A stretch of 64,000 bases of DNA from an uncultured Litoreibacter sp. (lineage in GTDB: Bacteria; Pseudomonadota; Alphaproteobacteria; Rhodobacterales; Rhodobacteraceae), in assembly GCA_947493265.1 (NCBI GenBank), contig CANLQL010000001.1, positions 744,001 through 808,000 of the forward strand, read 5' to 3'. The translations under genes were made by a program, and so were the position numbers. Below are positions 38,411-48,002 of the stretch, piece after piece (within the stretch, counting starts at the first letter, position 1; every line of letters starts with the position of its first letter). The notes below the pieces were generated by a model that saw only the letters and a program-made list of their open reading frames with translations, did no database searches and was not told the DNA's origin.

Positions 38411-39984
38411 GCTTGCTTGAGATCAAGAACCTGAACCTTTCGATTTATCGCACCCCGATTTTGCGGGACGTATCGCTCAGCGTTGATCCGGGGCAGATCG
38501 TGGCGATCACTGGTGAAAGTGGGTCGGGCAAGTCATTGACAGCGCTCAGCGTGATGGGTTTGACACCACAAGGCACGCAGATGACCGGTAAGGTTTTGCT
38601 GGACGGCAAGGACATCTTGCAAACGTCCGAACCCGAGTTGTGCAAAATGCGGGGGCAAGATGTGGGAATGGTTTTTCAGGAACCAATGACCGCGTTGAAC
38701 CCGGTGCAAACCATTGGTGCGCAAGTGGCCGAAACGATCCGGATGCACCAGAAGACGGGCAAACGCGCCGCGCTTGCGCAAGCGGAAGAAATGTTTCGGA
38801 AAGTTGGCCTAGAGATCCCCTCCAGCCGCTACCCGCATGAGCTATCAGGGGGACAGCGGCAAAGGGTTGTTATCGCAATGGCGGTTGCGTTGCGCCCGAA
38901 GCTTTTGATTGCGGACGAGCCAACCACAGCGCTTGATGTTACGACACAAGCTCGCATTCTGACGCTTCTAAAGACCCTTGTTCAAGAGTTTCAGATGGGG
39001 CTTTTGATGATCACCCATGATCTGGCAGTGGTCAGCGATATCGCAGATCAGATCGTGGTTATGCAAGAAGGTCAGGTTGTTGAACAAGGGCAGACGCAGC
39101 ATCTGCTTCAGCACATGTCGCATCCCTACACGAAAGCGCTTTTCGCCGCCTCTGGCCATCAAGTTGATTTGCCTCAAACCCCTGTTCAAAAACCACTTTT
39201 GCGGGTTAGTGGCGTGTGTCGCGACTATCCGATTGGGCGAACCTCCGTCTTCGGTGCCCGCAAAAGTTTCCGTGCGCTTCACGAGGTGAGCTTTGATTTG
39301 GGCCGCGGGGAGCGGGTCGGGCTTGTCGGCGAAAGCGGCTGCGGTAAATCAACGCTAACGCGCGCTATCCTAGGTCTGGAGGACGTTCAGGAAGGATCGA
39401 TCGCGCTGGATGGGCAACCGGTTTTCGCGGGCAAACGGCCAAATCTTGACGTGCGCAGGCAGATGCAGGTGGTGTTCCAAGACCCCTATAGCAGCTTCAA
39501 TCCGCGCCACCGGGTTGGGCGTCTGATCACCGAGCCATTTCATCTTTTGCAAGCGCCGCCGGAAGGCATCGCGCGTCAACAAGTCATTGAGCAAGCGCTT
39601 ACAGATGTCGGGTTGCATCCAACGGATGCCGGTAAGTTCATTCATGAGTTTTCCGGCGGTCAGCGGCAACGCATCGCAATTGCGCGGGCGTTGATCATCA
39701 AGCCAGAGCTTGTTGTATTTGACGAAGCTGTATCGGCCTTGGATGTGTCAGTTCGTGCGCAGGTTCTCGACCTGTTGGCAGAGCTGTGTCGCAAACGCCC
39801 GTTCACCTATTTGTTCATCAGCCATGATCTATCTGTTGTGCGGTCCGTCACCGACCGCGTTCTGGTCATGAAAGAGGGCCGCATTGTCGAACAGGGACCG
39901 ACAGAATCCGTCTTCACCAACCCGCAGCACAGCTATACTCAGGCGCTCATTTCTGCTGCGCCAAGATTGCCGGAGCTGGCCTAG
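38407..39984 (+). CDS. Fused dual ABC ATPase of the peptide-type importer
   Basis: The 525-residue product holds two ATP-binding cassettes in one chain, like DppD and DppF joined. The first has GESGSGKS (Walker A, about 37-44), LSGGQRQR and [11 protein letters not shown]. The second has GESGCGKS (about 312-319), FSGGQRQR and [11 protein letters not shown]. It powers the permeases encoded upstream. Its stop overlaps the convergent AhpD-like gene by four bases. Confidence 0.93.
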
Positions 39985-40589
39985 CTGTGGTTCCAGTCCT
40001 CTGAATTGTCGGAATTATTCGGCGACAAGCCAATGATGTCACCGCTGGTAGAGCAGCCAAGCCCAAGAACGGTCCGATTGGCATAGTTGAAATAGGCGGA
40101 CACCTGGTTGATTTCCAACACCTCACCGTCCGAAAACCCAGCGTCGCGCAGCGCCACAACGTCAGCTTCGACCATATCCTGAGGGCTTTTTGTCAGCTTT
40201 TCCGCGTAAGCCATCGCCTGCTTTTGCGCATCATCAAGTGGCGCGCTATCGGTCTGCCCTCTTTCGATTGCGGCACGAATGGCGTCGCTGCGCGGATCGT
40301 TGGCCAGAAGGCGTTTCATGCCGGCGAAATGATGCTCCACACAGTAGTCGCAACCATTCAGCGCACTGACCCAAACCCCAATCGCTTCCAGAAACCACTT
40401 TGGAATGGTGTTGCCGGAATGATGAAGCACGTTCTTGTAGATCGTCATATGGCCGACCATCGTATGGGGCCGCAGGCTGTGCGACATCATGATGTTGTCG
40501 ACATTGTCATCGGGGCCTTTGACGCGGTCATAAAGCGTTTTCAATTTGCCGTCTGCGTCCGCATAGGGGACGGTTTTGATCCACGACAT
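39981..40589 (-). CDS. AhpD-like peroxidase-related protein (carboxymuconolactone decarboxylase family)
   Basis: This 202-residue protein carries the redox motif CxxCxxxH at Cys80, Cys83 and His87 (GCDYCVEHH), with the upstream Glu68, as in AhpD-type alkyl hydroperoxidase proteins. Such proteins reduce peroxides or act as disulfide partners of other enzymes. It lies 28 bases downstream of the Rieske-thiamine-diphosphate enzyme gene on the same strand, so it is the probable last gene of the Rieske operon. A thiol-redox partner for that system is a reasonable inference. Confidence 0.85.
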   Translation of the reverse strand: MSWIKTVPYADADGKLKTLYDRVKGPDDNVDNIMMSHSLRPHTMVGHMTIYKNVLHHSGNTIPKWFLEAIGVWVSALNGCDYCVEHHFAGMKRLLANDPRSDAIRAAIERGQTDSAPLDDAQKQAMAYAEKLTKSPQDMVEADVVALRDAGFSDGEVLEINQVSAYFNYANRTVLGLGCSTSGDIIGLSPNNSDNSEDWNHS

Positions 40590-40617
40590 CGCGGTCTCCT
40601 GTCTTTCTTAGTTCTTC

Positions 40618-42597
40618 TTAGACTAACTCGGCGTCGGTCATGATCTCAACCAGGGCTGGTCCATTGACGGCAAGTGCGCGTTCGATCGCCTCGGCCAGAT
40701 CTTCGGATTTGGTGACTTTCTCGCCGTGGCCGCCGCACAGGCGTGCGAAGGCGGCAAAAGACGGGTTCAACAAGTCGGTTTCCCAGACCGGCCATTCGCC
40801 AGAGCGTTGTTCCTTCGAGATTTTGCCAAGTTGTCCGTTGTGCAAAAGAATATGGGTGACATCCATGCCGTATTTCACCGCTGTGGTGAAATCCATCGGG
40901 TACTGCCCGAAGCCACCATCGCCCGAGATTGAGACGACTTTGCGCCCCTTCAACGCGGCAATATCCTGTGTTGCGGCCCAAGCGCCCATCCCGGCCGGAA
41001 AGCCAAACCCGATGGAGCCCAGATAGCCCGACATCAGCACCCGTTGATTTCCCTTGGTCTCCAGATAACGTCCGAAGGAATAGGTGTTATTGCCGACATC
41101 AACGGCGAAGATCGTATCGTCAGGGACCAGTTTTCCAAGCGTATCGAAGACAGCAAAGGAATGTATGCCACCGCTGCGTTCCTCTTCCAGGCGGCTGGTT
41201 TTCTCGGACCGCCACATGCGCCAGCGGTCGGCAAGTTCAGCGGTTTGATCTTCCGCATCAGCGCCGGGTTTGATCAGATCGCTTGAAGCGTCACAAAACG
41301 CGCCGATATCGCCCCAGACAGGGACTTTTACGGCGTGGAATTTGCCCAATTGCATCCGGTCATGATCGACCTGAATGATGTTTTCCTTTTGGCCAATGCC
41401 CGTGTGGTTCGAAAAGCTGGCCCCAAAGGCGATCAGGACATCCGCCTCGTTCATGAACCAACTGGCGATCGGGGTGCCCGACCTTCCAAGAACACCTGCA
41501 CCCAGTGGGTGGCTATCGGGAACCAGGCCTTTTGCCTTGAAGGTCGTGACAACAGGCGCGCCTAGTTTTTCGGCAAGCGCGATGATCTTGTCGCGTGCGC
41601 CATAGGCCCCATGACCCACGACAAACATTGGCCGCTTGGCAGAATTGAGCAGATCAACCGCCGCTGTAATATCTTCTTTGGACGGGATGATCCCGGTCCC
41701 ACTGACCCGTCCAGCAGGGCCGCCTGCAGGTTTGGCCGAGGGCAGCGTTTGCATGTCATCGGGGAAAATCAGATGGGCCACGTTCTGTTCGACGATGGCG
41801 TTTTTGCAGGCCAGTGACATCAATTCGGCGTGGTTCGACGTGCTGAGGACAGGTTGCGAAAATGTGGCGACGGCCTGAAACGCAGATTTCAGATCAATGT
41901 CCTGAAACGCCCCTGGTCCCATGACTTGCGTTTGTACTTGTCCGGTCAAAGCTAATATCGGTGCGCGGTCGACTTTCGCGTCCCAAAGCCCGGTCAGCAA
42001 GTTCGTGGCACCGGGTCCTGCAATTGTCAGGCAGCCTGCCGGAATGCCCGTGAGTTTGCCATAGGCAGATGCGGCAAACGCTGCCGCACCTTCATGACGA
42101 ATGCCGTAATAGCTAAGCTTGCCATCGATGACGGACCGACGGATCGCGTCGGCGAGGCCAAGATTTGAATGGCCAACCATGCCAAAGATCGTCTGCACGC
42201 CCCAATTGGTCATGGTTTCAACCATCACGTCTGTGACCGTGGTTTCATGGGCAGGTTCAGGCTCTAGGCCCACGAATATTTCACCGTCACGGATGTCGAT
42301 CTCATAAAGCTTTTGGCCCGTGTCTTCATGCCCTCCGGGAGGGGCCCCGGTCAGCGGGTCAAAATCCCACCCGTGCCATGGGCATCTGATCCAGCATTTG
42401 CCTTCGATCCCTTTTTCAATCGACCCTTCGCCAAGCGGGCCTTTCTGGTGTGGGCAGTGATTGTCCATCGCTGACCATTGGCCGTCAAAATGCACAAGGC
42501 AGATGGATGTCGTACGCGCAGTGACGGTTTTCACGCGGCCTTCTGGCAGGTCGTCGACATGGCCAACGGAGATCCAATCAAGTGTGTCAGTGGTCAT
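40618..42597 (-). CDS. Rieske [2Fe-2S] domain fused to a thiamine-diphosphate enzyme (pyruvate-oxidase/acetolactate-synthase-like)
   Basis: The product has 659 residues. An N-terminal Rieske domain (about 1-112) has the cluster ligands Cys48, His50, Cys72 and His75 (HCPH and RCPWH). The remaining ~540 residues are a three-domain ThDP enzyme: Glu169 in RHEGAAAF activates ThDP, GPGATNLLTGLWDA is the usual PYR-domain segment, and GDGGFGQ plus NGQLGKI near residue 570-600 bind Mg-ThDP. ThDP enzymes of this kind decarboxylate a 2-oxo acid. A Rieske domain attached to one would give a direct electron exit. The ATG at 42597 is preferred over the one 6 bases upstream because GGAG lies 6 bases before it. 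Confidence 0.88.
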   Translation of the reverse strand: MTTDTLDWISVGHVDDLPEGRVKTVTARTTSICLVHFDGQWSAMDNHCPHQKGPLGEGSIEKGIEGKCWIRCPWHGWDFDPLTGAPPGGHEDTGQKLYEIDIRDGEIFVGLEPEPAHETTVTDVMVETMTNWGVQTIFGMVGHSNLGLADAIRRSVIDGKLSYYGIRHEGAAAFAASAYGKLTGIPAGCLTIAGPGATNLLTGLWDAKVDRAPILALTGQVQTQVMGPGAFQDIDLKSAFQAVATFSQPVLSTSNHAELMSLACKNAIVEQNVAHLIFPDDMQTLPSAKPAGGPAGRVSGTGIIPSKEDITAAVDLLNSAKRPMFVVGHGAYGARDKIIALAEKLGAPVVTTFKAKGLVPDSHPLGAGVLGRSGTPIASWFMNEADVLIAFGASFSNHTGIGQKENIIQVDHDRMQLGKFHAVKVPVWGDIGAFCDASSDLIKPGADAEDQTAELADRWRMWRSEKTSRLEEERSGGIHSFAVFDTLGKLVPDDTIFAVDVGNNTYSFGRYLETKGNQRVLMSGYLGSIGFGFPAGMGAWAATQDIAALKGRKVVSISGDGGFGQYPMDFTTAVKYGMDVTHILLHNGQLGKISKEQRSGEWPVWETDLLNPSFAAFARLCGGHGEKVTKSEDLAEAIERALAVNGPALVEIMTDAELV

Positions 42598-42865
42598 GCT
42601 CATCTCCGGGTTGTGTGAATTTTGAGGTGATAAAGTCGATCAGGCGTTGCAGCCAAGTCAGGATCATGAAGACGCCGACAGCCCAGATCAGAAGCTCAAA
42701 CGGGGCAAATTGCGTGCCGCGTAACCAGCGACGCAGAAGCCCACCGTCAGGGCGAAGGCCAAAGAAGTCCCCACGCGCCCAAAGGTCGAGAAACCAAAAT
42801 CGTGAAAGATAGAACAGCACGATGGTCAGAACGGCCATCAGCAACAGAAGCGTGATGCGTATCAT
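42587..42865 (-). CDS. Small membrane protein of the Rieske operon
   Basis: This 92-residue protein has two hydrophobic segments: about 3-24 at the N-terminus and 57-74 in the second half. The middle contains FFGLRPDGGLLRRWLRGT, and the C-terminus ends in a His/Asp-rich tail (GDEHDH) that could touch metal. I do not recognise a family. It overlaps the gene before it by four bases and the gene after it by eleven. Confidence 0.65.
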   Translation of the reverse strand: MIRITLLLLMAVLTIVLFYLSRFWFLDLWARGDFFGLRPDGGLLRRWLRGTQFAPFELLIWAVGVFMILTWLQRLIDFITSKFTQPGDEHDH

Positions 42866-43626
42866 CCGTCTATGACCTCCAATGTCTCAGGGTCCATGCG
42901 CAGAACCAGAATGTCGCCCCGGCGTTCAAGCTCGCCCTCTAGGGTGATGAACTGACCGATAAAATCATAGGCCATGTCTGGCAGTCTTCCGCCATCCAGC
43001 CCGGTGATCAGCATGAAGTCCGATCCTTCGACAGGTTGGGAGGACACGAATACCGGTGGAACTTCATTGATCAGGCAAAGCGCTGCGCAGGCTTTGTGGG
43101 CAAGTCCACGGCCCGGGCGCATCGCCCCGTTGAGGCATTTGCCGTCGCAAATCTCACCCGCCAGTTTCCAACGGCCCAAAGGTTCCGTGTCAAATTCGGG
43201 TGTGTCGCCTTCTGCGGCTGACAGGCCCCGCTGACCACCGGCCAATTGCAGCATATCAATGGTGCCGCGTTGCAAAACGATGCCGCTGACCTGAACCAAC
43301 CCGCCTTCATGGGGCGCGGCACGGGCGTCGACGCCTGACTTGCCGGCCGCAGCCAACATCAGGGTCTTGCCTGGTTTGATCAGGTCGTTGCCTTCGGTCA
43401 CCCGCAGGATCGGATAGGGGGTCAATTCGACCACACCCGTTACCGTTTGGCGCCCATAGTCGAACCGGAACCCTGATTGACCTGGGTCATCCTGCGTGCT
43501 GCCAATCACCAAACCAGCCAGAAGAAACAGCAAAACCACCCCGACACTGATCAAGGCCAGAAAGCCTTTCAATTGGCCGGGGATCGGGAAGTAGCCTACG
43601 AAAAACGGTTTGTCATTCTGGCTCAT
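42862..43626 (-). CDS. Membrane-anchored hypothetical protein of the Rieske operon
   Basis: This 254-residue protein has one transmembrane helix near the N-terminus (about 22-42) after a short cytoplasmic segment; the rest is likely periplasmic. Four cysteines occur as CDGKC and CAALC in GEICDGKCLNGAMRPGRGLAHKACAALC, a possible metal- or cluster-binding or disulfide motif. I do not recognise the family. Its ends overlap the flanking genes by four bases each, so it is an integral part of the operon. Confidence 0.65.
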   Translation of the reverse strand: MSQNDKPFFVGYFPIPGQLKGFLALISVGVVLLFLLAGLVIGSTQDDPGQSGFRFDYGRQTVTGVVELTPYPILRVTEGNDLIKPGKTLMLAAAGKSGVDARAAPHEGGLVQVSGIVLQRGTIDMLQLAGGQRGLSAAEGDTPEFDTEPLGRWKLAGEICDGKCLNGAMRPGRGLAHKACAALCLINEVPPVFVSSQPVEGSDFMLITGLDGGRLPDMAYDFIGQFITLEGELERRGDILVLRMDPETLEVIDG

Positions 43627-44693
43627 GCCATCACCTCCTGAGGTTTTGCATCGGGAAGGGGTACTGGTTCGACATAGGTGCCGGGCGGATTTGCTTGTGT
43701 TTGCACTTCGATGCTGTCGCCCGATAGGCGCAAATTATACGTAGGCACCATTTCGGTGAACGGTGCCGGAGACCGTCCATTGGTGACGTTGTACTGAAAG
43801 CCGTGCCAGGGACAGGTCACGAGGCAATCAATGATTTTCCCTTCACCCAGTGGGCCGTTTTGATGGGCGCAGGCATTGGATATCGCACTGAGCTTGCCGT
43901 CCTGGTTGAAGACAGCAACCCTATCACCGCCGGGCAGGACCCGGATTTTCGCAAACCCGTTTTCGATATCAGAAGTTTTGCAAACCTCGATCCACCCGTC
44001 TTTTTCGGTGCCGGGCTTGTCGCCTTTGCGAAGATCAAGCCAGGCCGCATAGGCGTGCAGCCCAGCCACGCACAGCGCCCCACCAATGAAGATTACTGTC
44101 ACGGTATGGTTTTGCTGGTCTTGCAGGATGCCGAAACTAACATGGGCAACCAGCGAGATATAGGCCAGATAAATGAAGCTGTGCAGACGTTTCCAAACAG
44201 GAGGTGTCAGAAACTTCATCCAGAAATCATGACTGGTGACTGCCAGAAGCAACAACGTCAGTAGGCTGAAAACGCCGAAAACCTCAAAGGGGAAACCAGC
44301 AAGCTGCGTGTAGCTTGTATTGGCAAACAGAAGTGCCTCGAACTTGTTGGAGCTTGAAAACGCGAAGTACCAATCGATGATGAAGCCTGCATGAGTGATC
44401 GCAACAAAGGTCGTCATCACGCCAAAATGCCTGCGATTGTAAAGCAGTGGTAGAAACCGTCGATCGATCCGCGCAAGCGGCCCGATACACAAGATAACCG
44501 TTAGCATCACAAATGCCGCCGCGCCAAAGGCACGGGCGTTGTGCACCTGGGGGTTAATCGGAAACTCGTGGCTCAGAATTTCGGGGCTGACGAAGAGAAA
44601 CACGTATAGAAACAGCACGACGCCGATCAGCATCACACCGTCATAAAGCCACTTGTTCCGGTTCCATTGAACGGGGGTGTATTTGACACTCAT
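43623..44693 (-). CDS. Ferric-reductase/cytochrome-b-like membrane protein with a C-terminal Rieske domain
   Basis: The product has 356 residues. The first ~220 hold six hydrophobic helices with histidines suited to haem (His101, His155, His171 and His184), resembling ferric-reductase-like transmembrane domains (YedZ/MsrQ). The C-terminal Rieske domain has Cys275, His277, Cys294 and His297 (CAH and CPWH). The start at 44693 (MSVKYTP) overlaps the preceding stop by four bases. A longer open frame upstream to 44855 is out of keeping with the fold. The protein would carry electrons between the membrane haem and a Rieske partner. Confidence 0.82.
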   Translation of the reverse strand: MSVKYTPVQWNRNKWLYDGVMLIGVVLFLYVFLFVSPEILSHEFPINPQVHNARAFGAAAFVMLTVILCIGPLARIDRRFLPLLYNRRHFGVMTTFVAITHAGFIIDWYFAFSSSNKFEALLFANTSYTQLAGFPFEVFGVFSLLTLLLLAVTSHDFWMKFLTPPVWKRLHSFIYLAYISLVAHVSFGILQDQQNHTVTVIFIGGALCVAGLHAYAAWLDLRKGDKPGTEKDGWIEVCKTSDIENGFAKIRVLPGGDRVAVFNQDGKLSAISNACAHQNGPLGEGKIIDCLVTCPWHGFQYNVTNGRSPAPFTEMVPTYNLRLSGDSIEVQTQANPPGTYVEPVPLPDAKPQEVMA

Positions 44694-45067
44694 TGGGACA
44701 CCTGCGCCGCCGGAGCGATTTGCTGTGGTACGAAATCTGCGGGCCAAATTTGGCGCTGTGACAGGCCAAGCACCAACACCAGAATGATCGCGACCGGCAT
44801 TGCGAAGGCGATCCAGTGATGCGCGGTTCGGCGTGGCTTGTAGCGGCTGGACCACTCATCCTTGCCATCTGCCAGAATGTACCAACGCCACAAGACCAGT
44901 GGCCAGATAAGCAGAATGCCGGGGATCAGAAGCGGGCGAAAGACATAGGCCCCGTCCGCGTCTTCATCGATCCGCTCAATCCCGATTGTGAGAAAGATCA
45001 ACGCGACACAGGCTCCGATTGCGCCCCAAATTTTGGCGAACAGGAAGATAGCCTCTGCTTCATTCAT
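44690..45067 (-). CDS. Three-helix membrane protein of the Rieske operon
   Basis: This 125-residue protein has hydrophobic segments at about 8-27, 45-63 and 87-102. Between the second and third lies a loop with RWYILADGKDEWSSRYKPRRTAHHW. No family is recognised. It overlaps its neighbours by four bases at each end. It may be a subunit of a membrane complex with the Rieske-tailed protein encoded next to it. Confidence 0.62.
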   Translation of the reverse strand: MNEAEAIFLFAKIWGAIGACVALIFLTIGIERIDEDADGAYVFRPLLIPGILLIWPLVLWRWYILADGKDEWSSRYKPRRTAHHWIAFAMPVAIILVLVLGLSQRQIWPADFVPQQIAPAAQVSQ

Positions 45068-46674
45068 GACAGACCTCCGAAGGTCACGCCGGAAATCTCA
45101 GACATGTCTTTTTTCCAGGTTGTCAGGTCGTCGTGGTTGAATTTCGACAGGTGATCATGACCACATGCCCGCGCCATAACCTGCATAAGCTCGGTGCTGG
45201 CGTCAAAGAAGTTTGCCAGTTGGCGCGCTGATTTTTCTACCACGAGCCGATTGACCAGTTCGGGTTTCTGGGTTGCGATCCCGACGGGGCAGTTGTTGGT
45301 GTGACACGCGCGCATGGCGAGACATCCAATCGCCTGCATCGCTGAATTTGAAACAGCAATCGCATCCGCACCCAAGGCCATTGCTTTGATAAAGTCAGCC
45401 GGTTTGCGCAAGCCGCCTGTGATTACCAGGCTGATATCATTGCGCCCCAATTTGGTTAGGTGCGCGCGGGCCCGGGCCAAAGCCGGGATTGTCGGGACCG
45501 AGATATTGTCGCGGAAGATGATCGGGGCGGCACCGGTTCCGCCGCCGCGCCCGTCCAGAATTATATAGTCCACACCAACTTCAAGCGCTGCATCGATGTC
45601 TTTTTCGATATGTTGCGCACTCAGCTTGTAACCGATGGGAATGCCGCCGGTCTTGCTGCGCACTTCATCGGCAAATTCCTTGATTTGCGAGGTTTCTGTC
45701 CAATCTGGAAACCGTGGTGGGGAAACGGCCGATGTTCCGGGCTCCAGGCCCCGCACCTCGGCGATTTTGCCTTGGACTTTGTTGCCCGGCAAATGGCCAC
45801 CGGTTCCGGTTTTTGCGCCTTGACCGCCTTTAAAATGGAAAGCCTGTACCTTCTCCAGCTTTTCCCAGCTAAAGCCAAACCGTCCAGAGGCGAGTTCGTA
45901 GAAATATCTGGAATTGGCCTGTTGTTCTTCGGGCAACATCCCGCCTTCCCCGGAACAGATGCCGGTTCCTGCCAATTCCGCCCCACGGGCCAATGCGATC
46001 TTTGCAGGCTCGGACAATGCGCCAAAGGACATGTCGGAGACAAAAAGCGGGATATCTAGGCGCAGTGGTTTCTGGGCGTTGGGCCCGATTACGACTTCTG
46101 TGCCGACCGGATCATCATCAAGTAAAGGCGGCTTCGCTAGTTGAGCGGTGATGATCTGTATATCATCCCAATCCGGCAATTCGCCGCGAGGGACCCCCAT
46201 GGAATCGACTGTTCCGTGATGGCCGGTTTTGGACAGCCCGTTTTTGGCGTAGCCTTGGATCAGACCATTGTAAGGTTCCGCGTCTGTGCCATGGCTGGGG
46301 TCGGCATAAAGACCAAGATAAGCATCGCGATTGTAGGGCTGTGGGTTGTCCTTGCCCCAAGCCAGAATTTCGTCCTCATCTACAAGGATGTCACCGTCTT
46401 CGATCCAGGCTTTGAACTTCGGCAAAACCTCATCATTGGCGTAAGCGGACACGCCACTATCCAACCTGTAGTCCCAATTATGGACCCCGCAGATCAGGTC
46501 CTTCCCGCGCACGAACCCGTCTGACATCAACGCGCCACGGTGCAGGCATCGCCCATAGAAAACCGAGACTTCCTCATCAAACCGAACCACCACCAGATCC
46601 ACCTCGCCGACAAGCGCGTATTCAGGCTTTCGGTCCGCAAGTTCGCTTAGTTTGTAGATCGGTGTCGGTTTCAT
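45064..46674 (-). CDS. Glutamate-synthase-like FMN/[3Fe-4S] protein with an N-terminal Rieske domain
   Basis: The product has 536 residues. An N-terminal Rieske domain (about 1-110) has Cys43, His45 (CLH), Cys62 and His65 (CGVH). The rest is the FMN-binding synthase domain of GltB (about 170-530), with GGRGGGTGAAP and the 3Fe-4S cysteines in C-x5-C-x4-C (CLAMRACHTNNCPVG). There is no glutamine amidotransferase domain, so free ammonia or no ammonia at all is used. Related proteins act as N-methylglutamate or archaeal-type synthases. The Rieske domain suggests electrons enter from the membrane. GAGG precedes the ATG. It is the first Rieske gene of the operon. Confidence 0.85.
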   Translation of the reverse strand: MKPTPIYKLSELADRKPEYALVGEVDLVVVRFDEEVSVFYGRCLHRGALMSDGFVRGKDLICGVHNWDYRLDSGVSAYANDEVLPKFKAWIEDGDILVDEDEILAWGKDNPQPYNRDAYLGLYADPSHGTDAEPYNGLIQGYAKNGLSKTGHHGTVDSMGVPRGELPDWDDIQIITAQLAKPPLLDDDPVGTEVVIGPNAQKPLRLDIPLFVSDMSFGALSEPAKIALARGAELAGTGICSGEGGMLPEEQQANSRYFYELASGRFGFSWEKLEKVQAFHFKGGQGAKTGTGGHLPGNKVQGKIAEVRGLEPGTSAVSPPRFPDWTETSQIKEFADEVRSKTGGIPIGYKLSAQHIEKDIDAALEVGVDYIILDGRGGGTGAAPIIFRDNISVPTIPALARARAHLTKLGRNDISLVITGGLRKPADFIKAMALGADAIAVSNSAMQAIGCLAMRACHTNNCPVGIATQKPELVNRLVVEKSARQLANFFDASTELMQVMARACGHDHLSKFNHDDLTTWKKDMSEISGVTFGGLS

Positions 46675-46706: not shown

Positions 46707-48002
46707 TCAAATCGTATTGTCATGCGATCCCGCCGTAGGATCTGGGCGGGGTGTAGTGGCTGAATTGGAAACATATTTAGCATACCAGCTTGCCGCAGGT
46801 GCCGCTGAAAGGCCATGAAGAACTGCGCTGATCCAAACAAGGTTGATCGCCAGATGCAGGATGCTTTCGCCCAATTCCATTGAAATGCTCTCGACAATCA
46901 GCAAGGCAAATAGCGCCGTGGCCAACCCGCGTGGTCCAAACCAGCCAAAGAAAAACCGTGTCGTTGGGTCCGCGTCTGTCCCAACCAGTGACACCCAGAT
47001 CGCCAGAGGGCGGATCACAAAGAGGCTGAGGAGGATGAACACGAAGGTGGTCACGCTCAGATGTTGGATCGCGTCTGGGACCAGTGCAGCACCCAATAGT
47101 AAGAACGCGGCCCATGTCAGAAGCTGGCCTTCACCTTCGCCGAATTCGAAGATGAATTTGCAGCGGTCTTTGACCACAGCGCCAAATGCCAAGCCCGCCA
47201 CAAAAGCAGAGATAAAGCCGTTGCCGCCGATCATAGTCGCCGTCAGATAGGCCGCGCCCGCCATCGCCAAAGCGCCGATGCCTTCATAGGCCTCTGCGGT
47301 CCATTTTTTGTTCTTTGCGATGATCAGAAGCTGACCACCGATCCAGCCAACCGCAACTCCGACGGCTGGTCCCAGGATAAGTTGTTTGGCGGCAAACGCA
47401 GTCCAGACAGAGACGTCTTGCGCATCCGTTCCCGCGGTTAGGCTGGCAAACAGCAAGATGAAAGGGAGCGCCAAACCGTCGTTCAAGCCGCTTTCAACGG
47501 TCAAACTGCGGCGCACGCGTTCCGGCACTGCTTTGTTGGACACGACAGCCTGTCCGAGGGCTGCATCGGTTGGTGAAAAGATCGCGGCAACCAAAATCAA
47601 GGCGAAGATTGACCAGTCGGGGAAGAACAGGACCCCGGCACCGGTTCCAAGAATGATGGCCAACGGAAGACCAATGAGCAACATTCGCATGGGCCAGATA
47701 TGACGTTCTTTCAAAGCACGAAGATTGACTTGGGATGCATCAAGAAACAGCAGCACCACCAAGGCCGTTTCGGCGACGGGGTCCAGCAAGGCCTCTGCGG
47801 TTTCGACGGCGATAAGATCCGAAACCGTCAACAGCGCACCCAAGCCGATGAAAACCATCGGGGCTGTCACAATCGTTTGCGACAGCCGGCGTCCAAAGAC
47901 GCCGAAGACGGTCGCAACGCAACAGATTAGCAGAAATCCCACCAAGGAATGATCCATTGTCCCAACCGGCATTATTGCCGATATTTTCAACATGATAGAC
48001 AT
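46707..48002 (-). CDS. Monovalent cation:proton antiporter (CPA1-like)
   Basis: This 431-residue protein has 12 to 13 hydrophobic helices. Motifs of the CPA family are visible: FSPTDAALGQAVV (with the conserved Asp), VESGLNDGLALPFIL (Asn-Asp pair) and FGWFGPRGLATALFALL with the conserved arginine. It would exchange Na+ or K+ for protons. The start at 48002 is uncertain; the ATG at 47957 (MDHSLVGF) is also possible. It ends 32 bases before the Rieske-GOGAT-like gene on the same strand and might be the first gene of that operon. Confidence 0.88.
   Translation of the reverse strand: MSIMLKISAIMPVGTMDHSLVGFLLICCVATVFGVFGRRLSQTIVTAPMVFIGLGALLTVSDLIAVETAEALLDPVAETALVVLLFLDASQVNLRALKERHIWPMRMLLIGLPLAIILGTGAGVLFFPDWSIFALILVAAIFSPTDAALGQAVVSNKAVPERVRRSLTVESGLNDGLALPFILLFASLTAGTDAQDVSVWTAFAAKQLILGPAVGVAVGWIGGQLLIIAKNKKWTAEAYEGIGALAMAGAAYLTATMIGGNGFISAFVAGLAFGAVVKDRCKFIFEFGEGEGQLLTWAAFLLLGAALVPDAIQHLSVTTFVFILLSLFVIRPLAIWVSLVGTDADPTTRFFFGWFGPRGLATALFALLIVESISMELGESILHLAINLVWISAVLHGLSAAPAASWYAKYVSNSATTPRPDPTAGSHDNTI

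Follow-up and report, generated by a model that had tools for sequence, protein, structure and literature searches.

Why would a bacterium place three different Rieske-domain proteins in a single operon? The question is raised by a 64,000-nt stretch of contig CANLQL010000001.1 from an uncultured Litoreibacter sp. (here called the window; all coordinates are counted within it), in which seven open reading frames (ORFs), g1 to g7, follow one another on the minus strand from 46674 to 39981. We find that this arrangement is not due to chance, as many genomes contain the block again, whole or as separate modules. What is conserved as a unit is a membrane core made of g2, g3, g4 and usually g5, and the Rieske-bearing enzymes g1 and g6 join it; these modules have been recombined, yet repeatedly brought together. 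We put at roughly 45% the probability that they constitute a modular redox system whose parts are connected by their Rieske domains and in which oxidation by a thiamine diphosphate (ThDP) enzyme would feed both a GltB-type reduction and the export of electrons to the periplasm.

Layout and recurrence of the Rieske operon

The six genes that form these modules are as follows.

45064..46674, minus strand: g1, 536 aa, N-terminal Rieske domain and GltB-like domain of the flavin mononucleotide (FMN)/3Fe-4S type (Pfam; alignment of 16)
44690..45067, minus strand: g2, 125 aa, core membrane protein with three hydrophobic segments (hydropathy with overlapping windows merged, alignment, position beside g3)
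43623..44693, minus strand: g3, 356 aa, six-helix haem protein resembling NOX, STEAP and MsrQ, with a C-terminal Rieske ferredoxin domain (Pfam, invariant histidines, AlphaFold, fold matches)
42862..43626, minus strand: g4, 254 aa, membrane-anchored protein with beta-rich domains, predicted periplasmic (position beside g3; AlphaFold predicted local distance difference test (pLDDT) score 83)
42587..42865, minus strand: g5, 92 aa, two-helix membrane protein (hydropathy, alignment, presence in loci with g3)
40618..42603, minus strand: g6, 661 aa, N-terminal Rieske domain and complete pyruvate-oxidase-like ThDP enzyme (Pfam, NCBIfam, PDB matches)

The tight packing of seven minus-strand genes described in an initial annotation of this DNA was found again. 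Four-base overlaps join g1/g2, g2/g3 (with the ATG start of g3), g3/g4 and g4/g5, the overlap of g5 and g6 is 17 bases, and 28 bases separate g6 from g7. For g3 we took the ATG at 44693; the longest frame runs from a GTG at 44855. A gap of 32 bases lies between g1 and an antiporter gene upstream of it (48002-46707). A scan of the operon for promoters and terminators returned a number of sites not above that in shuffled sequence.

The presence of three distinct Rieske proteins, also claimed in that annotation, is borne out. Rieske family PF00355 matches g1 (4.5e-11), g3 (4.1e-16) and g6 (1.4e-16) above its cut-off, so that three of the seven Rieske matches in the whole genome lie in this operon, and the CxH and CxxH ligand pairs are invariant in 20 g3, 16 g6 and 16 g1 sequences (alignments that include those of the window). 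The other Pfam matches are Glu_synthase in g1, Ferric_reduct in g3, three TPP_enzyme domains in g6, CMD in g7 and Na_H_Exchanger in the antiporter; no Pfam family reached its cut-off in g2, g4 or g5. Among the NCBIfam matches listed, which for g6 were the best 25 of 56, no model reached its cut-off for any of g1 to g6.

Relatives of g3 were searched in one genome per species with exact peptide patterns of the window sequence, a procedure that favours close relatives and makes the counts a lower bound. The scan gave 54 loci, and dropping two Rieske-only matches (L069 and L070) left 52. In these, g3 is accompanied by g2 in 52/52, by g4 in 52/52 and by g5 in 48/52 loci, in genera that include Roseobacter, Ruegeria and Tateyamaria. 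When seven loci with short flanks are left out, the remaining 45 divide into 18 with both g1 and g6 (counting L066, where g3 and g6 are in broken frames), eight with g6 only, six with g1 only and 13 with neither. The order can differ, for example g6-g1-core in L057. In a tree of 49 g3 proteins (42 scored rows), parsimony requires eight changes of g1 adjacency and seven of g6 adjacency, although the true minimum may be lower, as 11/46 inner branches are well supported.

Using a g4 profile, we found full-length relatives of g4 in 14 genomes from elsewhere in the class, outside the host's family. Twelve of these regions were opened (G436 and G519 were left out), and g3 adjoins g4 in all 12. One of them (L163) holds the full order g1-g6, another (L151) has g4-g3-g1 with g6 divergent on the opposite strand, and a third (L160) has the core followed by g1; the other nine contain neither g1 nor g6 within the region.

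Co-occurrence was then counted across 295 genomes of the host's family, representing 294 genera. Of these, 16 contain g6, 24 contain g3 and 28 contain g1, the last figure being restricted to matches that include the N-terminal Rieske part (among them the C-terminally partial G098 and G157, and G184, in two pieces). Together, g6 and g3 occur in 14 of the 16 g6 genomes (1.3 expected), g6 and g1 in 15 of the 16 (1.5 expected), and g1 and g3 in 16 of the 24 g3 genomes (2.3 expected). As g6 lacks g1 in just one of its 16 genomes, g1 is its closest partner. After genomes with linked genes had been left out, six genomes still combine g6 and g3 (0.45 expected, P 3e-7), six combine g1 and g3 (0.88 expected, P 6e-5) and two combine g6 and g1 (0.16 expected, P 0.008), by P values that ignore shared ancestry. 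The initial annotation had named as its check a search for genomes that hold all three Rieske proteins as a unit, and such genomes exist: the 18 flanked loci are joined by a genome-wide excess even where the genes are unlinked. Its link between ThDP enzyme, haem protein and FMN/3Fe-4S protein is supported by this co-occurrence; a fixed seven-gene pathway is not, as the system is modular, with core, g1 and g6 as its parts.

A paralogue of g1 provides a control. It is 66-70% identical to g1 over the GltB-like part alone and was found at 24 places in 23 family genomes (loci L121-L124 and L191-L209), or about 8% of the family genomes (23/295, one unread). CDGSH-type 2Fe-2S motifs are present at 23 of the 24 places, two motifs at 21 and one at two; the remaining one, G229, was counted in the CDGSH set though its N-terminal piece was not read, the script's marker motif being missing. 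Two short matches to the C-terminal part only (G220 and G249) were placed in neither set. Genomes with CDGSH-GltB are not associated with g6 (2/16, 1.25 expected) or with g3 (3/24, 1.87 expected). The Rieske domain would therefore seem to be the interface that the partners share, and it is apparently the Fe-S domain and not the catalytic domain that determines the choice of partner. A counterpart of g6 was sought in ten CDGSH-GltB genomes and none was found; the ThDP matches there are 25-33% identical. Matches to the same GltB-like C-terminal part also occur on plasmids of Vibrio, Photobacterium and Pseudoalteromonas, with N-termini that were not examined.

The soluble pair extends beyond the bacterial family. 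In a plasmid collection, four haloarchaeal plasmids and one Mycobacteroides plasmid carry relatives of g6 with 52-59% identity over their length, and a Rieske-GltB protein is encoded on three of those four haloarchaeal plasmids. The spacing between g1 and g6 is 1.4 kb in Salinirubellus and 17 kb in Halorubrum, and Halorarius has g6, an antiporter, an ion channel and g1 within 8 kb. The plasmids of Haloferax larsenii and Mycobacteroides carry g6, with no g1 found on them. The haloarchaeal g6 regions (L166-L169) also contain many genes for mercury-reductase- or dihydrolipoyl-dehydrogenase-like proteins, DsrE, peroxiredoxin, pirin and quinol monooxygenase, and in this resemble a stress island.

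Two distinct subfamilies of ThDP enzyme are found in the company of the core or of its g4-like domain. On Rhizobium plasmids (three of five records viewed), the core is divergent from genes for a tetratricopeptide repeat (TPR) protein and for a ThDP enzyme that lacks a Rieske domain and shares 25% identity with g6. The same divergent arrangement of core, ThDP enzyme and TPR protein is present in G303, a genome of another family, where the two proteins are 46% and 37% identical to those of Rhizobium, and in L165 a ThDP enzyme 55% identical to that of Rhizobium lies near a short relative of g4. In the other out-of-family core regions, the g6 profile detected no ThDP enzyme except g6 itself in L151 and L163. 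On the Rhizobium plasmids, an OpgC-type gene adjoins the Rieske-less ThDP gene (L211:1-2688, L212:1-2724, L213:1-2725); a multi-helix gene that is OpgC-like by eye adjoins the ThDP relative in L165 (9217-11998), a locus in which the short g4 relative is all that represents the core.

Some further observations concern the core loci. Core neighbours vary, including a TctA protein in Roseobacter and a fused aldolase/dehydrogenase with a sugar-isomerase-like protein in L018; a fixed metabolic context was rejected on this ground, and no substrate can be read from the neighbours for the same reason. The word AWTTGTGA stands about 70-160 bases upstream in 15/53 upstream regions (0.6 expected), mostly of close relatives. 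It precedes the core or g1 in L027, L028, L030, L034, L036, L037, L053, L043-L045 and others, is absent from the window, and was seen by eye in 1/18 upstream regions of unlinked g1 or g6 (L175, an unlinked g1). It is perhaps the site of a regulator. Core loci also appear in records labelled as Oceanobacillus (L065) and as a metagenome-assembled genome of Gammaproteobacteria (L067), through either mislabelling or transfer.

Domains and conserved residues

The sites considered in this section are listed with the alignments in which they are conserved.

43803..43871, minus strand: g3 Rieske ligands C275-x-H277 and C294-xx-H297, invariant in an alignment of 20
43075..43149, minus strand: g4 C160-x3-C164-x12-H177-x2-C180-x3-C184, invariant in an alignment of 34
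42373..42456, minus strand: g6 Rieske ligands C50-x-H52 and C74-xx-H77, invariant also with the haloarchaeal and Mycobacteroides proteins
40810..40824, minus strand: g6 K594...E598, presumed substrate pocket (PoxB alignment with positions counted by hand; invariant in both g6 alignments)
46480..46548, minus strand: g1 Rieske ligands C43-x-H45 and C62-xx-H65, invariant in 16 and kept in three haloarchaeal rows; CDGSH motifs there in paralogues
45289..45324, minus strand: g1 C451, C457 and C462, invariant in 16 and aligned with solved glutamate synthases

Ferric_reduct matches g3 above its cut-off (3e-10), and H89, H101, H171 and H184 are invariant in the alignment of 20. In the AlphaFold model (pLDDT 77), H89 and H101 are part of the third long membrane helix (87-109) and H184 of the fifth (173-191), with H171 just before the fifth; four such histidines would suffice for two haems, the number we infer. 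The model has six membrane segments and hydropathy alone gives five. In fold searches the membrane part resembles NOX5, DUOX1 and STEAP at modest template modelling (TM) scores of 0.39-0.43 by query, and the Rieske domain matches dioxygenase ferredoxins, the ten best rows having TM scores of 0.83-0.89 by target. After the membrane part, Pfam finds Rieske families only, and no dehydrogenase domain of the type that binds flavin adenine dinucleotide (FAD) and reduced pyridine nucleotide (NAD(P)H). Loop charges predict that both ends of g3, and with them the Rieske domain, are on the cytosolic side.

For g4, the model shows a single membrane helix (residues 17-43) followed by beta-rich domains that could be read as oligonucleotide/oligosaccharide-binding (OB)-like, and the Cys-His loop is among its least confident parts. 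A periplasmic location is predicted from the one N-terminal helix and from short relatives that begin, as judged by eye, with stretches resembling signal peptides. The invariant set of four cysteines and one histidine is likely a metal, cluster or thiol redox site. A fold search of g4 against the PDB gave nothing at E <= 0.001; the first rows, whole-chain alignments with root-mean-square deviations of 17-20 A, were set aside, and the small metal-binding protein SilF came at rank 12 as a non-significant match (E 0.088). Five short secreted-looking proteins, in which no Pfam family exceeds its cut-off, share the C-terminal Cys-His motif (L159:9101-9517, L162:9339-9764, L165:8770-9195, L164:9493-10077 and L153:9052-9573). 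A SCO1/SenC gene adjoins them in L153 and L164 by Pfam and in L162 and L165 by eye, and none was seen in L159; these relatives possibly form a copper or thiol-redox family.

The solved structure nearest to g6 is Escherichia coli PoxB (1.5e-64), and its best NCBIfam match is the pyruvate oxidase model NF006377 at 385 bits, with a cut-off of 742 that is not reached. Among plasmid matches, the nearest annotated pyruvate oxidase is 36% identical. All three ThDP domains (N, M and C) are present by Pfam, and the PoxB alignment shows that the catalytic glutamate and the GDG-N motif are kept; in the haloarchaeal relatives this motif reads SDGG. E171, F233, Q234, K594 and E598 are invariant, the haloarchaeal and Mycobacteroides proteins included. 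The aligned PoxB positions line the pyruvate pocket. Because an invariant lysine stands where PoxB has Phe465, the alignment suggests an acidic substrate for g6, such as a dicarboxylic 2-oxo acid.

In g1, Glu_synthase is matched at 4.5e-92, and solved glutamate synthases (GltS) align with residues 213-509 only; a Pfam match to a glutaminase (amidotransferase) domain was not obtained. C451, C457 and C462 are presumably the cysteines of a GltS-type 3Fe-4S cluster, judging from the GltS motif. K288 and R308 match the lysine and arginine of the 2-oxoglutarate region of GltS, and H294 replaces a glutamine (GGHLPG instead of GGQLPG).

Two further genes flank this set.

46707..48002, minus strand: cation:proton antiporter, Na_H_Exchanger, nearest to the K+/H+ type, a satellite of g1 (Pfam, NCBIfam)
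39981..40589, minus strand: g7, AhpD/peroxidase-related, a local neighbour (TIGR01926 above its cut-off)

The antiporter adjoins g1 in 12 of the 26 g3 loci with g1 and in none of the 26 without it, in agreement with the earlier suggestion that it belongs with the operon. In 20 regions with unlinked g1 or g6, it is also found near the g1-g6 pairs of L172, L174 and L176, and a fragment lies by g1 in L189. The Halorarius and Mycobacteroides antiporters fall in the same Pfam family as that of the window. By contrast, g7, which had been counted as part of the set, is present in 0/52 related loci and was rejected as a conserved member.

Proposed electron route and alternatives

In the reading that we prefer, g6 would decarboxylate a 2-oxo acid oxidatively with ThDP, as pyruvate oxidases do, with quinone replaced as electron acceptor by the Rieske cluster in the same chain. 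Contact between Rieske domains would then open two routes. Electrons could pass from g6 to g1, reach FMN by way of the 3Fe-4S centre, and power a reduction of the glutamate-synthase type without NAD(P)H. They could also pass to the cytosolic Rieske domain of g3, cross the membrane through its haems in the manner of NOX and MsrQ, and arrive at the putative Cys4-His site of g4. In this scheme, g2 and g5 would be structural subunits, and the antiporter may balance the ions and protons that are moved.

A broader formulation, which we offer tentatively and regard as doubtful, treats the Rieske domain as an interchangeable electron plug on a private 'bus' that uses neither NAD(P)H nor soluble ferredoxin, able to wire any cytosolic enzyme that acquires it; the core, if present, would be a NOX-like conduit to a new type of periplasmic Cys4-His acceptor, and the soluble pair would have been kept in both Alphaproteobacteria and haloarchaea.

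Several observations weigh against the modular reading. The core stands without a nearby g1 or g6 in 13/45 loci, and 7/24 family genomes with g3 have neither gene, which implies that the core has other donors. Conversely, g1 and g6 are also found without the core (G126 and G266), so that neither needs the other. A tree-aware adjacency test is not significant: of five pairs, g6 changed in the same way as g1 in 0.8 on average, in the opposite way in 0.1 and showed no difference in 4.1. The co-occurrence P values take no account of common descent. In the plasmid collection, g3 was found on Rhizobium plasmids only and on none of the haloarchaeal plasmids, whose chromosomes were not searched. The antiporters of Halorarius and Mycobacteroides are 27% identical to that of the window over part of their length, or undetectable by pairwise BLAST. 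Finally, the reaction of g1 may not be glutamate synthesis, given the lack of a glutaminase half and the histidine in place of the GGQLPG glutamine.

The initial annotation had raised a coupling to quinones, and it is possible to build an account on it: the core would give electrons to the quinone pool or take them from it, g4 would be an assembly or metal subunit, and the whole would be a Rieske-coupled 2-oxo-acid:quinone oxidoreductase. The nearest solved relative of g6, E. coli PoxB, reduces ubiquinone, and MsrQ can accept electrons from quinol. SCO1 is a copper chaperone family, and the position of four of the five short g4 relatives beside SCO1/SenC genes or look-alikes, together with the weak match of g4 to SilF (E 0.088), would suit a metal subunit. 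However, g4 is constant with g3 (52/52), has an invariant Cys4-His set and is predicted to be periplasmic. With the Rieske domain of g3 predicted on the cytosolic side, we consider transmembrane electron export at least as likely as quinone coupling, and the complete quinone-based account unlikely, if still a serious competitor. Somewhat harder to favour is the proposal that g6 to g1 is the real pathway, a reductive amination driven by a 2-oxo acid without pyridine nucleotide and tied by the antiporter to cation homeostasis, with the core as a drain for surplus electrons or as a separate system sharing the niche. The presence of g1 in 15 of the 16 g6 family genomes, the pair on haloarchaeal plasmids without a match to the core, and antiporters adjoining g1 or g6 all speak for it; the excess of unlinked g6 and g3 (6 against 0.45 expected) and the second ThDP family beside the core do not fit, and on balance we think it rather improbable.

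Two other accounts are more remote. The core might produce extracellular superoxide in the manner of a NOX, with Rieske enzymes and not NADPH as its electron source. This would agree with the NOX5 and DUOX1 matches of the g3 membrane part and with the occurrence of the core in Roseobacter, Ruegeria, Tateyamaria and others, and passages of a study of the Roseobacter clade describe extracellular superoxide there, with the enzymes identified in one strain only (PMC6414704). A constant g4 with its Cys4-His set instead suggests a protein acceptor, and we regard superoxide generation as the purpose of the core as quite improbable. At the far end, the genes could have separate functions and hitch-hike together in marine Alphaproteobacteria, their Rieske domains being unrelated coincidences. 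The patchy, modular spread, the 13 isolated core loci, P values blind to phylogeny and the non-significant tree-aware test are all compatible with this. Unlinked co-occurrence, the CDGSH control, neighbourhoods that recur in rearranged form and a g1-g6 pair that spans two domains of life are not, and we give this account the least credence.

Some functional contexts were considered and set aside. For anti-phage defence, PADLOC assigned 0 families to the five proteins submitted (g1, g2, g3, g4 and g6). For methylated amines, a context raised in the initial annotation, or methanesulfonate, no supporting neighbour or paper turned up in the searches made. A paper on riboflavin catabolism (PMC12746152) brings together a thiamin decarboxylase and a Rieske dioxygenase as two distinct enzymes, and that pathway is unrelated.

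Relation to known systems

Each large protein encoded here belongs to a known superfamily, and the wiring between them was not found described. A literature search, which covered few subscription papers, gave among the matches listed no description of the set or of a Rieske-ThDP or Rieske-GltB fusion. If the proposed route is correct, it would represent transmembrane electron export in which a Rieske domain replaces the NADPH-flavin half of NOX and oxidative decarboxylation serves as the feed. It would offer a case in which the partners of an enzyme are decided by a fused Fe-S domain, CDGSH-GltB being unassociated, and would place three proteins whose reactions are unknown in a common context open to testing. 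It would also be a candidate source of surface redox chemistry in marine bacteria, with a bearing on the question of what produces extracellular superoxide in most of the Roseobacter clade, and would add a redox partnership that crosses domains of life.

By comparison to PoxB, g6 has the full ThDP fold, the catalytic glutamate, the FQ pair (F112-Q113, corresponding to g6 F233-Q234) and a counterpart of E469 (g6 E598). It differs in its N-terminal Rieske domain and in Lys594 at the position of Phe465, and the match stops at PoxB residue 528 of 572, leaving the C-terminal tail unmatched. Similarly, g1 shares with GltB and ferredoxin-dependent GltS the FMN/3Fe-4S half with its three cysteines, but has no glutaminase half and reads GGHLPG. 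Class II CDGSH proteins with a Glu_synthase domain are already in print, as passages of PMC5859297 report; like g1, CDGSH-GltB joins a related short GltB-like domain to a 2Fe-2S part, which in g1 is Rieske and not CDGSH.

The Rieske domain of g3 superposes on the ferredoxin of carbazole dioxygenase and resembles the dioxygenase Rieske ferredoxins (CarAc and HcaC type), but it is fused to a membrane protein, and the operon genes include no oxygenase. Cytochrome bc complexes differ in that the operon proteins contain neither cytochrome b nor cytochrome c1 domains. The closest resemblance of the g3 membrane part is to the NOX/ferric reductase domain (FRD) superfamily, which includes MsrQ, through its Ferric_reduct match, histidines of the type found in the third and fifth transmembrane helices (TM3/TM5), and the NOX5, DUOX1 and STEAP fold matches. 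Passages of a study of the FRD superfamily describe the TM3/TM5 histidines and list a Rieske-bearing architecture as model M4 (PMC3591440), so that the combination of Rieske and FRD is not new. In contrast to MsrPQ, the seven operon genes and the antiporter encode no molybdopterin or MsrP-like domain (MsrP was not sought elsewhere in the genome). In contrast to NOX, g3 carries a Rieske ferredoxin domain in place of the FAD/NAD(P)H domain and is accompanied by the constant partners g2 and g4.

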